A stretch of DNA of 64,000 bases from Cloacibacterium rupense (GTDB lineage Bacteria > Bacteroidota > Bacteroidia > Flavobacteriales > Weeksellaceae): the NCBI RefSeq assembly GCF_014645495.1, contig NZ_BMLV01000002.1:611191-675190 (forward strand), written 5' to 3'. Shown piece by piece: positions 36,166-41,567 of the stretch. Both the position numbers and the translations under genes were made by a program. The number at the start of each line of letters is the position of its first letter. Within the stretch, counting starts at the first letter, position 1. The notes below the pieces were generated by a model. It had not been told where the DNA came from. It searched no databases and saw only the letters and a program-made list of their open reading frames with translations.

Positions 36166-38160
36166 TTAAAAAGTGTAACTAAATCCCACGTTGAAACTTC
36201 TGCCAGGAGATAGAATTCTTTTGGCTTTATCAGTAGAATAAGCTCTACTTAAATGTTCAGAATAAGCTCTGTCAAAAATATTAAGTACATCAAATGTAAG
36301 ATTTGCATTTTTGAATACATTGTATCTCGCATTGAAATCAAAAACCGAAAAGTCTTTGGTCTTTAACTCTCCAAAATTAGGATTGATGCGATCTTGTTTA
36401 CCCGAAAATCTGTAATTAACGCCTAAAGTAATTGGCGAAAAATCTGCTTCTAAACTCCATCTGAAATCTAGTGGAGCAACTTCTGGCAAAGGATTATTGG
36501 TTTTTATATCTTCCGCATAAGTGTAAGCTGCTGCTAATTCTGTTCTGTATTTTGGTAAAAATTGCCAATTAAATCTCGCTTCTGCGCCAGTTTTATAAGC
36601 TTTATCAATATTTTGAATTTGTCTAGTTCCTGGCGAAGACATAGAATATGGCTTTATAGGTACCACAACTCCCGTTATATAATCTTGTAGATGAGAATAA
36701 AAAACATCTGCTTGAAAGAAAACATTTTCTCTTTTGTAGGTGTAAATTAAATCTAACTGATTGTTGGTTTCTGGTTTTATGTCTGGATTCCCCACCAATT
36801 CGTAAGCGTCTATTCCTACTACAAATCTATTGATAAATCTTTCGGTTAAGCTTCCGCTTCTTTGTGCTCGCCCTGCCCAAATTCCTATTTGTGAATTTTT
36901 GGTTAAATTTTGGTTGTAGCCCAAACTTACATTATGGTTGAAGTCACTAGATTTTCCGTCACCATAAAGAGTTTTGAATAATTTAGATAAATCTTTTGCG
37001 TCAGCTTCATTGTAGTCAAATCTCAAAGAAACCACCAATTTAGAATTCGGGAAAGCATATTGATATTCATTAAACCAACCTATTTGATTGATGTGAGAAT
37101 CTTGCCAAGCAGTTCCGTCTCTCATTGGCATTGAGGGAGGCATTGTCATTTTAATATTTTCAGCACCTTCGTGTTTGTAATCAAAGCCTGTATAAAATGT
37201 GTTTTTATTCCAAGCAAATTTAGCTTCTGTTCTTGCGCCGTAAGTAGAAGATTTCACATCAGAAACCATTTTTCTATCAGGAGTTCCCATAGAATGTTTC
37301 ACGTCTGTAACGTAAGAATTAAAATCAATTTGTTTTAAATATTTATGGTTGAATTTTGCCAAATGTTTTAATTGATACATCCACGTTTTGTCATAAATCA
37401 AATCCATACTCAATGCCGCAAATTCAACATCTCTCCCTTGATTGGTGTTGATTTGTAGCGTGGTAATGTTATTTTCATTCCATTTGTAATTTCCTTTAGT
37501 GCCAATGTTATATCTAAGGAAAGCAGAGCGAACTTCGTTGCCATTCCCATCTTTATATCGCTCGCCTTTCTGATAAGAACCGAATAAATCCCAAACTATT
37601 TTTTTTGATGAAACTTGCGTTAAAACTTCATTTCTAATTACATTTCCGTTGGTTTCATAACCTGTAGAAATTCTACCGCCTAATTTTGTTTTGTCTGTAA
37701 AAATAGGAGGAATGGTGATGAAATTAATGGTTCCGCCAAAAGAATTTCCGTTTCTGAAATGATAAGGACCTTTGTAAATTTCTGCTTCTTGTACAGTATT
37801 TAGGTTAACTTGAGAAACAGCAGGATCCATTCTACTAGGGCAAGCATTGATGGCAGCTGCGGCACCATCTATTACGATGTTTAATTGTTCGTATTTGAAA
37901 CCTCTCAAAACAGGATCTGTAGCATAATTTCCTGCTTTTCTAATTCCGTTGATTTCAGGTAAAGAATTCAGAAATTTACCAGCATCGTGATTGAGATTGT
38001 CAGATTGTTTGGTTTCTAGGTTTTGTTTGTTTTGTGATTTTGTAGTGAGTTTAGTAATTTTTACTACTTCTATATTTTTGTATAAACTGTCTTGTTCTTG
38101 TTGTGCAAAAACAACAGTGGAAGCTGCTAAAGAGAGAGCAGCAAGATTTTTAGATTTCAT
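36166..38160 (-). CDS. TonB-dependent receptor of the copper-type locus
   Basis: 664 residues: signal peptide (1-19), plug domain (about 45-160, with 'GIRKAGNYATDPVLRGFKYEQLNIVIDG' and 'GGTINFITIPP') and a 22-strand-type barrel ending in 'RSFNVGFSYTF'. No CarboxypepD-like N-terminal extension, unlike SusC. The plug has a 'NACPSRMDP' loop that is distinctive of receptors in metal and copper-type loci. It is four bases downstream of the 313-aa gene. Substrate uptake of copper or a copper complex is inferred from the neighbouring MbnP/MbnH-like genes. Confidence 0.9.
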   Translation of the reverse strand: MKSKNLAALSLAASTVVFAQQEQDSLYKNIEVVKITKLTTKSQNKQNLETKQSDNLNHDAGKFLNSLPEINGIRKAGNYATDPVLRGFKYEQLNIVIDGAAAAINACPSRMDPAVSQVNLNTVQEAEIYKGPYHFRNGNSFGGTINFITIPPIFTDKTKLGGRISTGYETNGNVIRNEVLTQVSSKKIVWDLFGSYQKGERYKDGNGNEVRSAFLRYNIGTKGNYKWNENNITTLQINTNQGRDVEFAALSMDLIYDKTWMYQLKHLAKFNHKYLKQIDFNSYVTDVKHSMGTPDRKMVSDVKSSTYGARTEAKFAWNKNTFYTGFDYKHEGAENIKMTMPPSMPMRDGTAWQDSHINQIGWFNEYQYAFPNSKLVVSLRFDYNEADAKDLSKLFKTLYGDGKSSDFNHNVSLGYNQNLTKNSQIGIWAGRAQRSGSLTERFINRFVVGIDAYELVGNPDIKPETNNQLDLIYTYKRENVFFQADVFYSHLQDYITGVVVPIKPYSMSSPGTRQIQNIDKAYKTGAEARFNWQFLPKYRTELAAAYTYAEDIKTNNPLPEVAPLDFRWSLEADFSPITLGVNYRFSGKQDRINPNFGELKTKDFSVFDFNARYNVFKNANLTFDVLNIFDRAYSEHLSRAYSTDKAKRILSPGRSFNVGFSYTF

Positions 38161-38163
38161 TTT

Positions 38164-39105
38164 TTAGAAATTAAGATTGATATACAGTGAGTTTCTAGAG
38201 ATAATCTCCACCATATTATTATTAAGTTTTGAAACAAAAGGATTTTGAAATTCTGCACCTATATTTATTTTTCTGAAAGATGCTTCTAGCCCTGCTTTTC
38301 CTAAAATAGCATAACCACCAGTGTTGTGAACAGGGTCTCCTAACTGTACATTTTCAAAATATTTTTCATACTGAACTCCAATCTTTGGAGATAATTTCCA
38401 ATTATTATAATTCAATATGTAGTAAAGATTAAGTTGAGAGTTCCATTGGTCACCAAATCGGTAGTATTTTTCGTTTTGGTTTTTGAAGGTGTAATCCGTT
38501 GTAATTTGGGCAGCAAAATTATTTTTGAAATAGGTGTAATTTACAATTGCTGAATAATCCCAACTGCCTGTTCCTAACTGAAAACTTGGGTTGAATGAAC
38601 TTGCATTGGCTTCATTGAATTTTCCTGTTGGTATTTTCATCCCCAGTCCGAAGTGAAGTTTCTGATTTTTAATTTTTTCAGTGTTCAGAATCTGATAAAT
38701 GGCCATTACAGAAATATCTCCTATGCCGTTTATTTTTTGCTTCGGATTACCCTCTTTTTCGTGAAAATGATAAGGAACAGAAGTATAAATTTCAAATTTT
38801 TTCCAAACAGGAATTCTAGCCCAAAGTTGAAGCGTGTTGTATCTTTCACTATGAGTTGGTTCAGATTCAAATTGATAAATTTTTGATTTATAATGTTGAT
38901 TAAGGTATTTGACACCAATGAATTGAGGATTGAGAATGCTCTCAAAACCAGAAGAAGCTCCGCCTGCAGAACAACCACAAGCGTCACAATCGTCTAACAA
39001 AAAATGATTTTCAGTTACCCTCGGGATTTGCAAACTGTCTGAAATGTTCTTGCCAAATAGAGTTACGGCAAACGTAGATAATAAAATGATGAATAAATTT
39101 TTCAT
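38164..39105 (-). CDS. exported protein with Cys motif near the mature N-terminus
   Basis: 313 residues with a signal peptide (1-18). The mature start has 'DDCDACGCSAGGASSGFES' near residues 37-55, three Cys within six residues, a likely metal site. The rest is a series of beta-strands ('LWARIPVWKKFEIYTSVPYHFHEKEG', 'LHFGLGMKIPTGKFNEANASSFNPSFQLGTGSWDYS') that resembles the transporter-like/MetA barrel family of outer-membrane proteins. It sits between the di-haem and receptor genes (nine and three bases of spacing) and is conserved in such loci as far as I recall. Confidence 0.75.
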   Translation of the reverse strand: MKNLFIILLSTFAVTLFGKNISDSLQIPRVTENHFLLDDCDACGCSAGGASSGFESILNPQFIGVKYLNQHYKSKIYQFESEPTHSERYNTLQLWARIPVWKKFEIYTSVPYHFHEKEGNPKQKINGIGDISVMAIYQILNTEKIKNQKLHFGLGMKIPTGKFNEANASSFNPSFQLGTGSWDYSAIVNYTYFKNNFAAQITTDYTFKNQNEKYYRFGDQWNSQLNLYYILNYNNWKLSPKIGVQYEKYFENVQLGDPVHNTGGYAILGKAGLEASFRKINIGAEFQNPFVSKLNNNMVEIISRNSLYINLNF

Positions 39106-39114
39106 TCTTGAAAA

Positions 39115-40164
39115 TTATTCTGCAAAGGCAGGATTGCTAATAAATTTTTGGTCGCTTAGTGTCTTTAAAAAAGCGATGAGGTAAGTTTTTTCTGTTTCAG
39201 TAAGTGGAATTCCTACTTTACCTGGCACTTTTTTAAATTCTGGGTCTAAATTCGGATTGTCAACTACACCATCACTATAAAAATCAAGCAATGCCTTTAA
39301 TGTTTGAAATCTTCCATCGTGAGTATATGGAGCGGTATATTCTACGTTTCTAAGACTCGGGACTCTAAATTTCAGAAAATCTTCGTCTTTTCCTGAGACT
39401 CTTTTTCTGCCCTCGTCCTTAAATATAGGGTGATACGGAATTCCTGTATTTCTGTAAGATTGGTCTGTAAATAAATCTGTAGCGTGGCATGTAGCACATT
39501 TATTTTTAAAAATTGTATAGCCTTGTTGCTCATCAGCAGTAAAACTAGCACCTTCATTTCGTACTACTTTATCATACTTAGAATCTGCAGAAATCATCGT
39601 AGAAACAAATTGTGTTATTGCTTTCAAAATTCTCTCTGCGGTAATGTTTTTATCACCGTAAACTATGGTAAAAAGACGTTGATAATCTTTATCATCTTTT
39701 AGTTTTACAGCTATGTTAGACATGGTTTCGTCCATTTCTACTTCAGTGGTAATCGGGATGATGGGTTGAGTTTCTAAATGCGTAACAGAACCGTCCCACA
39801 TAAATTTATCTAACCATATTAAATTCTGAATAGGTGGTGTGTTTCTGAAACCTTCTCTGCCTTCTACACCATGGCTAATAGAATGCCCGTGATGTGTAAA
39901 AGCATTTTCTTGTATATGACAAAACGCACAAGCTACGGCGTTGTCTTTTGCTAATCTGCCGTCATAAAATAGTTTTTTCCCTAGTTCTACGCCATAAACT
40001 GTAGGTTCGTAACCTGCTACATTAAATTTAGTTGCAGGGAAATTAGACGGTAATTTTAAATCTATTTTTGAATTGGTAGGATAATTAATGTCTTCGTCTT
40101 TATCACATTGTAAGAGAACAAAAAAACTAAATATCACCACAATCAAAATGAAATATTTTTTCAT
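39115..40164 (-). CDS. di-haem cytochrome c peroxidase / MbnH-like lipoprotein
   Basis: 349 residues with a lipobox (LLQC, Cys20) and two CxxCH haem sites, CAFCH at 79-83 and CATCH at 223-227, the layout of bacterial di-haem peroxidases of the MauG/MbnH type. Methionine/His ligands include 'HHGHSISHG' near 91. In methanotrophs MbnH oxidises a Trp of MbnP to kynurenine so that MbnP binds copper; here the MbnP-like gene lies directly upstream, so this is the probable role. Whether it is peroxidase or modifying enzyme cannot be told from sequence. Confidence 0.92.
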   Translation of the reverse strand: MKKYFILIVVIFSFFVLLQCDKDEDINYPTNSKIDLKLPSNFPATKFNVAGYEPTVYGVELGKKLFYDGRLAKDNAVACAFCHIQENAFTHHGHSISHGVEGREGFRNTPPIQNLIWLDKFMWDGSVTHLETQPIIPITTEVEMDETMSNIAVKLKDDKDYQRLFTIVYGDKNITAERILKAITQFVSTMISADSKYDKVVRNEGASFTADEQQGYTIFKNKCATCHATDLFTDQSYRNTGIPYHPIFKDEGRKRVSGKDEDFLKFRVPSLRNVEYTAPYTHDGRFQTLKALLDFYSDGVVDNPNLDPEFKKVPGKVGIPLTETEKTYLIAFLKTLSDQKFISNPAFAE

Positions 40165-40177
40165 AGTATAAATAAAG

Positions 40178-40214
40178 AAAAACTATTGACGAAGTCTTTT
40201 CGCCAATAGTTTTT
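40178..40214 (-). terminator. hairpin with T runs between the MbnP-like and MbnH-like genes
   Basis: A 13-bp stem with one mismatch (about 40181-40193 with 40199-40211) has T/A runs at both sides. It follows the MbnP-like stop by about ten bases and may end most transcripts there, giving more MbnP than downstream enzyme. Confidence 0.7.
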
Positions 40215-40224
40215 TTTGAAGAAA

Positions 40225-41064
40225 TTAATCGTTATGTACGTGGTCTATATAGAACATTTCAGTCATGTTTTCCACTCCTTGTGCTACTAATGGTTTTGTA
40301 GGATGCATTCCTATTTTATTGGTGTCATCTAACACAATTTTATTCTTCCCACTCAAAAATTTATTTATAGAAGCCATAATGTGAATTTGAGGAGCAATAT
40401 TTTTTCTAACTTTAGCATTGCTAGGAAGAGTAAGGGTAATTTCTTTATAGACATTTGGAGTTGCAGAAACAGTAGGATCTCCTATGTTACCAGAATGAAA
40501 TTGAAATTTATTAGCAACTATAGGTGCGCTACCAGAAGTGTCACCAAAATTACCTTCAAAATTGGCAAATTTATAACCAGAAGCCCAACTCCAGCTCATG
40601 CTGCTAGCTTTTGCTTTGTCCCAAAAAGAAGCCTGTCCTGCTTGCCCTAGAGTAAATGCTTTAGGAGAAATACCCAAACCAAATCTTACTTGTTTGTAAT
40701 CACCAGCAGGAATGTCTGACAATACAAAATTGCTACTAGTAGCTGTGGTTGCTTGATCTACAATAAATGCACCTTTATCTGGATCGTCATAATTGTATTT
40801 TACTTCAGTTCCGTCTGTTTTTATTAAAACTACATTGCTTACAATATATTTCAAAGAAGTAAAAGTGTGTTTTTGCCCAGAAGATGAGGTTAAAACGGTT
40901 TGTCCAACAGTAATTGTCCCTACGTTGTCTATAGTGTTTTCAAATTTTAAAGTTAAGTTGTTTTTATCATTTGCACTGAATTCTGCCTCATCATCTCTGT
41001 TACACGAGACTAGTGCTAAAGAACTTACCGTTAATGCCAATATAATGTTTCTGAATTTTTTCAT
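40225..41064 (-). CDS. MbnP-like copper-binding lipoprotein
   Basis: 279 residues with a lipobox (LVSC, Cys21). The family pattern is clear: 'LTLKFENTIDNVGTITVGQ', 'FTSLKYIVSNVVLIKTDGTEV', 'IPAGDYKQVRFGLGI', 'SWSWASGYKFANFEG', and a C-terminal 'GIHP..LV' type end with His (KIGMHPTKPLVAQ, DHVHND). Several Trp in SWSWASGYK are candidates for the kynurenine-forming residue. It is upstream of the MbnH-like gene, from which it is separated by a terminator-like hairpin. Confidence 0.85.
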   Translation of the reverse strand: MKKFRNIILALTVSSLALVSCNRDDEAEFSANDKNNLTLKFENTIDNVGTITVGQTVLTSSSGQKHTFTSLKYIVSNVVLIKTDGTEVKYNYDDPDKGAFIVDQATTATSSNFVLSDIPAGDYKQVRFGLGISPKAFTLGQAGQASFWDKAKASSMSWSWASGYKFANFEGNFGDTSGSAPIVANKFQFHSGNIGDPTVSATPNVYKEITLTLPSNAKVRKNIAPQIHIMASINKFLSGKNKIVLDDTNKIGMHPTKPLVAQGVENMTEMFYIDHVHND

Positions 41065-41198
41065 TTTTATACAAATTTTAGTTTAAGTATTAATCAAATA
41101 GGATAATTGAGTGTTCATTTTTTTGAAAAATGAATACAAACAAATGCGCAATTAAAAATATAATTGCAAAAATAAAGTGTGGAAATAAGTGATTAGGT

Positions 41199-41567
41199 TT
41201 AAACTAAAAATTCGGGCGGTTGAAAACCATTTTTTAAATAACCATCTAGAGTGAGTGTATGGTTAATGGAAACAATCTTGGTTTTAGCTGAAAAAACTAC
41301 AGGATTTTTAATAATGAATTCTGCATTTTTAGCAGGAAGCACATGTAATTCAAAAGAATACTTAATTTGCGAAATAGGGCTTTCTTCTTTCTGAGCCTCT
41401 TTTCTTACCTGACATTTACCAGAACAGTCTAACTCTGGTTTTTGTTTGTTGATACACAATGCTTCGTAATAATCTTTATTAATTTGATAATCAATAAAAT
41501 AGAGTGAGTTTTGGAAACTGGCCCCAAAAATCATTACCGAAAGCAATATGGAAATGAAGAATTTCAT
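41199..41567 (-). CDS. small exported Cys-containing protein of the copper-type locus
   Basis: 122 residues with an N-terminal hydrophobic segment (1-20) and the motif 'CINKQKPELDCSGKCQVRK' (Cys at about 39, 48 and 52), recurring in small Bacteroidetes proteins next to metal transport genes. The tail has 'PPEFLV' at the very end. It is the first gene of the locus, with a promoter directly upstream. The motif suggests metal binding or sensing; the function is unknown. Confidence 0.65.
   Translation of the reverse strand: MKFFISILLSVMIFGASFQNSLYFIDYQINKDYYEALCINKQKPELDCSGKCQVRKEAQKEESPISQIKYSFELHVLPAKNAEFIIKNPVVFSAKTKIVSINHTLTLDGYLKNGFQPPEFLV

Follow-up and report, generated by a model that had tools for sequence, protein, structure and literature searches.

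A candidate copper-sensing leader peptide and a covarying stem ahead of an MbnP–MbnH and OprC-type receptor gene row in Cloacibacterium rupense

Introduction

Two kinds of small leader protein provide the closest described precedents for the locus examined here. CutF of Rhodobacter capsulatus and the CutF-like proteins are small exported proteins that combine a CxxxC motif with a Pro-Pro pair (PP) in the last 15 residues, are encoded upstream of copper genes and have a stem by which the start of the following gene is shielded; in CutF, a distance of 45 residues from CxxxC to PP puts the motif within the SecY vestibule (PMC9973294). Further traits of such proteins are a Sec signal peptide and copper-dependent stalling that acts in cis alone. 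CruR of Bordetella pertussis, a DUF2946 protein distinguished by CXXC and RAPP motifs, a spacing of 45 and Rho termination, is a copper-sensing arrest peptide found ahead of TonB-receptor operons, some of which, reported in Proteobacteria, carry OprC-type receptors and MbnPH-like genes (PMC9426467). Here we describe a row of five genes on the minus strand (positions 41567–36166) of a stretch of 64,000 nt from Cloacibacterium rupense, a member of the Bacteroidota (contig NZ_BMLV01000002.1, positions 611,191 to 675,190), which is referred to throughout as the window. A leader gene, S, is followed by genes for an MbnP-like lipoprotein, a di-haem MbnH/MauG-like lipoprotein, an outer-membrane-barrel-type protein and a TonB-dependent receptor, and we consider it probable that the row is a copper-acquisition operon governed by S as a single stalling leader and switched on when copper is low.

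The CxxxC–PP spacing is about 64 in the window and 45 in CutF, the 5′ arm of the stem is made of the leader's own last codons and stop codon, the target genes are mostly concerned with uptake or delivery, and the expected copper sign is the opposite of that of CutF (PMC9973294). With CruR the locus would share that sign, copper being expected to act as the off signal in both (PMC9426467), whereas the S family has CxxxC, HPP, RPP or QPP endings and a stem on the start region, and has no match to DUF2946.

Many of the 5,334 CutF-like proteins listed in the CutF study are from Bacteroidota, and the available parts of that study describe no test of their regulation in this phylum (PMC9973294). A 2025 survey of RAPP/RGPP leader peptides reports TonB-related leaders across Gram-negatives and, in its available portion, describes copper-related ones as absent from some groups such as Bacteroidota (PMC12992588); the S family, with its HPP, RPP and QPP endings, could fill this gap. 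Copper acquisition across the outer membrane is itself little understood (PMC8610252, PMC12914433). Among the matches listed in the open-licence literature (main texts) there is no report of a stem formed from a leader's own last codons or of such an operon in Bacteroidota and, among those listed in the open-licence literature, no study of outer-membrane copper uptake through an OprC-type receptor in this phylum. In this one locus, moreover, a receptor whose ionic-copper site is known stands alongside a copper pair of the kynurenine type and a gene that is a candidate for the sensor.

Results

Leader peptide S and its homologues

The leader gene (41199..41567, minus strand) encodes 122 residues with a signal-peptide-like N-terminus, judged by eye to be hydrophobic with Lys at position 2, a CxxxC motif (C48-SGK-C52) and a P117-P118 pair followed by four residues; the next gene lies on the same strand after a gap of 134 nt. 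These properties agree with the definition of CutF-like proteins, namely fewer than 150 residues, CxxxC, PP in the last 15 residues and a same-strand next gene within 1000 nt. No Pfam family matched S up to an E value of 1. A first-pass annotation of the window had described the product as a Cys-rich small protein; the small protein is present, but ‘Cys-rich’ is a generous term for three Cys in 122 residues.

Homologues of S were found in 171 of 197 genomes of a family sample and in 99 of 296 genomes of a phylum sample. All 123 distinct homologues carry both CxxxC and a terminal PP, which ends one to eight residues before the C-terminus, as compared with PP within the last 10 residues in 4 of 608 other proteins of the same loci. 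Furthermore, a hidden Markov model built from the N-terminal part of the leader, with the C-terminal part excluded, retrieved 140 open reading frames (ORFs), every one with PP in its last 20 residues. Two further leaders (L060 and L070, located before MbnP or MbnH genes), both with CxxxC and PP, lie outside the later counts and tests. The CxxxC-to-PP spacing is 60–73 in 122 of the 123 leaders and exactly 64 in 53, and the sequence between CxxxC and the tail drifts while PP stays at its distance from the end. The residue preceding PP is His in 63, Arg in 21 and Gln in 10 of the 123, and RAPP or RGPP occurs in none. Membership of the DUF2946/CruR family was therefore rejected, given the missing Pfam match, CxxxC in place of CXXC and the absence of RAPP/RGPP. 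Judged by its sequence, S looks like a copper-sensing arrest peptide of the CutF/CruR kind.

Complementarity between the leader end and the next start

The last leader codons (E-F-L-V) and the stop codon, which follow immediately upon the two Pro codons, form the 5′ arm of an attenuator stem (41199..41214, minus strand), with 41214–41199 pairing with 41086–41072; in the fold pair list a second helix joins 41195–41190 to 41096–41091. The 3′ arm (41072..41096) thus lies directly upstream of the MbnP start codon at 41064. The fold of the interval 41050–41240 had a z score of −3.0, with 2 of 200 shuffles equally stable. The stem was first noticed by eye over the junctions of 41 loci and was then tested on two fixed stretches, the last 24 nt of the leader plus 20 and positions −40 to +3 of the next start, by comparing matched with permuted partners. 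Matched partners paired more strongly in the discovery junctions (n=29; −10.1 versus −6.3 kcal/mol), in a second set unseen beforehand (n=54; −11.3 versus −7.0 kcal/mol), with one junction per genus (n=31; −10.6 versus −7.1), at leader–MbnP junctions (n=17; −11.4 versus −7.3), in a set picked by MbnP alone (n=11; −14.2 versus −9.35) and at leader–receptor (n=19) and other junctions (n=46), and in every case the count was 0 of 20,000 permutations. Because permutation holds composition constant, this complementarity amounts to covariation, and since the stem covaries the regulatory claim is open to direct test through compensatory base changes.

The discovery set comprised 29 of 41 prepared junctions (gap 40–150 nt; L033 was excluded as part of L054), the second set 54 of 79 distinct junctions (gap 45–160; L125 repeats L032) and the MbnP-chosen set 11 of 16 junctions (gap 45–260; L199 repeats L165). 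The next start codon was assigned by hand or by a hand-made rule in six discovery loci and by a single rule in the second set. Over 70 junctions, pairing probability was 0.61–0.74 at −7 to +3 nt relative to the leader end and 0.35–0.52 between 25 and 9 nt ahead of the next start; the corresponding place in control junctions gave 0.09–0.17, with values of up to 0.26 further upstream.

When a ribosome was modelled at PP, the unpaired fraction of the MbnP start region in the window rose from 0.34 to 0.63, and it stood at 0.34 with the ribosome nine codons upstream and at 0.64 with the ribosome at the stop codon. The averages over 82 junctions were 0.47 for free RNA, 0.63 with the ribosome at PP and 0.49 with the ribosome nine codons upstream. 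The leader might alternatively act on transcription, by Rho-dependent termination in the gap as in CruR, with the stem of secondary importance. Such a mechanism has a precedent in CruR operons with TonB receptors and MbnPH-like genes (PMC9426467), and the 134 nt between leader and next gene would accommodate it, but the covarying stem sits on the start region, which a Rho mechanism does not need, and we regard control at transcription as rather unlikely. Rfam searches gave no credible match.

The receptor retains the OprC copper site

The last gene of the row (36166..38160, minus strand) encodes a receptor of 664 residues, and the first-pass assignment of a TonB-dependent receptor is borne out by a match to the receptor barrel family (119.1 bits). 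The closest solved relative in the PDB is OprC, an ionic-copper importer, with E values of 2.7e-35 for the single sequence and 1.5e-54 for a 14-sequence profile. OprC of Pseudomonas aeruginosa (PDB 6fok and others) is matched over the full length of the sequence and binds copper through Cys143 and Met147 of the plug and His323 and Met325 of the barrel (PMC8610252), with which C107, M111, H289 and M291 of the window receptor align to give a complete CxxxM–HxM site. The four ligands are kept in all 14 close sequences (14 of the 64 receptors found were taken into this alignment) and in 60 of 61 aligned receptors, the window included; the sole receptor without them is a 677-residue ORF behind a barrel gene (L131). 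Distant receptors (about 22–26% identical) encoded behind YtkA-like genes also keep the site. In L038 and its relatives, the YtkA-like lipoproteins that accompany receptors of this distant type carry a recurring Met/His-rich DPRMPxMGNHSSPNN sequence and HSCP, which are possible copper sites.

Ionic copper is the likeliest cargo, because OprC is the nearest solved relative and all four of its ligands are kept, and we infer that copper is what the receptor carries in this organism. Import of a copper chelate or of a different metal instead is improbable: the receptor does also score with haem and siderophore receptor models, under cut-off, and CrtA takes up chelated copper, but the conserved Cys and Met are absent from CrtA-type receptors (PMC12914433), whereas the ionic-copper ligands are all but invariant here.

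MbnP, MbnH and the barrel-type protein

The MbnP-like lipoprotein (40225..41064, minus strand; 279 residues) was correctly named in the first-pass annotation, matching PF20243 with 137.7 bits against a cut-off of 27. Its W158-S-W160 (WxW) and H190 are present in all 23 aligned sequences, the window included (23 of 33 entered the alignment), and WxW is found in 32 of 32 distinct relatives. The single sequence had no match in the PDB; the profile matched 7l6g (E 5.8e-4) with WxW and His aligned, the sole credible structure, recorded as ‘metallo-mystery pair system four-Cys motif protein’, besides one chance-like match at 0.16. The window protein carries HVHND at its C-terminus; many members of one branch of the family share this motif while another branch lacks it (His275 and His277 each in 17 of 23), and it is perhaps a second metal site. 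MbnH reportedly converts the first Trp of the MbnP WxW to kynurenine, with Cu(I) bound.

The di-haem protein (39115..40164, minus strand; 349 residues), likewise recognized at first pass as MbnH/peroxidase-like, matches CCP_MauG with 177.6 bits, and its best PDB relative is 6e1c (3.2e-40), which we take to be MbnH of a methanotroph. Di-haem enzymes of the MauG/MbnH type have two CxxCH haems and a Tyr as distal ligand in place of Met, and the window protein has both. Both haem His are present in 22 of 22 aligned sequences (of 34), W123 in 19 of 22, and position 296, aligned with the Tyr of 6e1c, is Tyr in 18 (the window included) and Phe in four. In each lipoprotein the lipid Cys is followed by acidic residues, C21 by N-R-D-D-E in MbnP and C20 by D-K-D-E-D in MbnH, in agreement with C-X-K-(D/E)2-X, the signal for surface export in Capnocytophaga canimorsus (PMC5080379), with Arg replacing Lys in MbnP. 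By a crude pattern that sometimes takes the wrong Cys, at least two acidic residues follow the lipid Cys in 17 of 22 MbnP and 13 of 22 MbnH sequences. Given these surface-export-like signals in both lipoproteins, MbnP and MbnH may be exposed on the outside of the cell, next to the receptor. CorA, which has kynurenine at its copper site, is surface-located and copper-repressed (PMC3912023).

The combination of a di-haem protein with a copper protein of conserved Trp and His is that of methanotroph MbnP/MbnH, CorA/CorB and MopE/SACCP (PMC3621798, PMC3912023), and MbnP/MbnH pairs have been known well beyond methanobactin producers since 2013 (PMC3621798). The first-pass description of an MbnP/MbnH-type copper locus without methanobactin genes holds as far as MbnB is concerned: models TIGR04159 and PF05114 had no match anywhere in the genome, whose completeness is estimated at 100%, other methanobactin genes not being searched for; among 14 control genomes PF05114 scored above cut-off in two and TIGR04159 in none.

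The fourth gene (38164..39105, minus strand) encodes 313 residues with CDACGC near the mature N-terminus, and DDCDACGCSAGG, the string ascribed to a barrel protein at first pass, is located in it. The ORF and motif are thus there, while the barrel is an inference, the window protein being without a credible family match. Of 24 distinct homologues, 23 retain CDxCGC and only the most distant match departs from it, and the gene accompanies MbnP–MbnH in 17 of 23 leader–MbnP rows. Phenol_MetA_deg, an outer-membrane family, matches 6 of 16 aligned members, with the window copy not among the six, and the profile found no match in the PDB. AlphaFold models were set aside as unusable, with a mean pLDDT (predicted local distance difference test) of 43.8 for the barrel protein and 37.8 for MbnP, both from two-row alignments.

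Gene modules behind the leader

In 84 leader rows (80 distinct, four leader places being counted twice, three before MbnP and one at a contig end) the next gene encodes MbnP or a YtkA-like lipoprotein in 23 rows each, an OprC-like receptor in 10, a YHS or SCO protein in six and the barrel in one, so that a recognized copper gene comes next in 63 of the 84; two rows meet a contig end. In one genome (G089) a leader (89%) stands directly before a receptor (94%) with a stem of its own (−11.1 kcal/mol), whereas in the window MbnP–MbnH–barrel sits between the two; PF20243 is matched in one of seven genomes of the genus, that of the window. These findings suggest that the MbnP–MbnH–barrel module was inserted here or lost elsewhere, with the stem matching the present next gene.

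Other rows differ in content. A second leader copy in the same genome (L054; G000:C1:841666-842028) precedes two YHS-type proteins (one by Pfam) and a SCO1/SenC copper chaperone, which may point to a further copper unit that serves oxidase assembly. In several loci, e.g. L155, L168 and L181, ORFs of 700–800 residues without a query match follow the leader and are possibly other large receptors. Between the YtkA-like gene and the receptor of L048 are two ORFs, one resembling by eye a DNA methylase and the other a restriction endonuclease, which may represent a restriction–modification insertion.

Discussion

The computed gene identities, conserved ligands, leader motifs, covarying stem and modelled opening with the ribosome at PP can be joined in the following scheme, in which the five genes presumably share one transcript. 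Leader S would be exported during its synthesis, with CxxxC 64 residues ahead of PP; at that distance CxxxC would, by the CutF arithmetic, lie beyond the SecY vestibule and should be periplasmic already once the ribosome has reached PP. At low copper, translation would stall there and the ribosome would mask the last leader codons, which could then no longer pair with the MbnP start region, and MbnP, MbnH, barrel and receptor would be translated. Copper on CxxxC would relieve the stall, upon which the ribosome would depart, the stem would shut the start region and the operon would fall silent. MbnH would oxidize the first Trp of the MbnP WxW, probably to kynurenine, creating a tight Cu(I) site with which MbnP would capture surface copper, and the OprC-type receptor would import it through the CxxxM–HxM site, the CDACGC barrel being a putative accessory copper-handling outer-membrane protein. 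The copper reading of the first-pass annotation is supported, with ionic copper as the likeliest cargo on account of the OprC-type site, but it missed the probable role of the small protein, which is unlikely to be just one more copper protein and more probably senses copper for the operon and switches its translation.

Several results weigh against this proposal. Non-leader control junctions deviate too: two samples of 82, drawn from 206, gave z scores of −5.0 and −1.4, as against −16.3 for leader junctions. Pairing is weak in a minority of loci (e.g. L032, L043, L045, L046, L058, L061, L146, L160, L161 and L178), and RNAalifold found no consensus pairs in a MAFFT alignment of 22 junctions, which we put down to arms that differ between subclades. 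The next gene is unclassified in 19 of the 84 leader rows, many of these genes being unannotated ORFs of 700–800 residues; of 30 MbnP loci picked regardless of the leader, 16 have one within the fetched flank and 14 have none; and the leader homologue of L057, which has CxxxC and a PPP ending, precedes what appear by eye to be leucine-rich-repeat secreted proteins, with no evident copper link. Visual inspection or motifs served to assign the signal peptides and the surface location. The more exacting NCBIfam models are also not reached: the MbnP-like protein scores 43.2 against 140 bits with the equivalog TIGR04052, the MbnH-like protein 210.7 against 362.85 bits with its best model, TIGR04039, and the receptor 238.1 against 472.45 bits with its best model, TIGR01778 (TonB-copper). 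These shortfalls set the window proteins apart from OprC and from methanotroph MbnP/MbnH, as do the coupling of receptor, MbnP–MbnH pair and leader in one row, the surface-export-like lipoprotein signals and the lack of an MbnB gene.

Also to be counted among these points is that in the model the start region opens to much the same extent whether the ribosome is placed on the stop codon or at PP (0.62 versus 0.63, 82 junctions), so that the switch must lie in ribosome dwell time. The same result would be expected of an ordinary copper operon in which S is a periplasmic copper chaperone, the CxxxC of the finished protein binding copper, and the complementarity reflects plain translational coupling, with no copper-controlled arrest. 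We think this quite unlikely, since drift between CxxxC and the tail, with PP fixed near the end, is the pattern of an arrest peptide and many different target genes lie behind the leader; a small copper chaperone as the sole role of S is disfavoured on the same grounds.

The sign of the copper response assumed here is borrowed from CruR, and CutF runs the opposite way, a further point against the proposal. With the same leader and stem, copper might prolong the stall as in CutF, so that copper would turn the row on and its products would serve storage or detoxification instead of uptake. The stem design tells only that stalling means on, and CxxxC and the stem-before-start layout are closer to CutF than to CruR (PMC9973294). 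Against this, the gene content (OprC-type receptor, MbnP–MbnH, SCO1) fits acquisition and delivery, the kynurenine copper protein CorA is repressed by copper (PMC3912023), and so is the CruR operon with its TonB receptor (PMC9426467). The reversed sign is accordingly doubtful in our view, and expression at low copper is retained as the preferred reading.

Beyond the window, we lean towards the view that copper-sensing leaders are widespread in Bacteroidota, with their own last codons as the blocking arm, target modules swapped together with matching arms, and copper as the off signal, that is to say a CruR-like logic on a CutF-like RNA design. On this view a ribosome halted at the terminal xPP would open any copper module located behind it, be it a receptor, MbnP–MbnH–barrel, YtkA plus receptor or YHS–SCO. 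Shine–Dalgarno pairing is weak in Bacteroidota, and control of the start region by structure would, on this view, follow from it.

The remaining features of the locus may be mentioned briefly. All five ORFs predicted at first pass are present, in the order given, with intergenic gaps of 134, 60, 9 and 3 nt. The four genes downstream of the row belong to other families (Pfam), and the upstream neighbour lies on the opposite strand. A promoter-like pair, TTTTTG and TATCTTTG, seen by eye just before the leader, has a spacing of 16, outside the searched range of 17–23, and no promoter is claimed; the pattern scan matched at 5 of 42 leader starts, that of the window not among them. Terminator-like sites in the region number three, against 2.8 expected from shuffles and thus statistically weak. 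The longest of the three, a hairpin of 16 pairs with a T-rich tail, lies between the genes for MbnP and MbnH (40178..40214, minus strand) and might act in partial termination or in processing, so as to yield more MbnP than enzyme.

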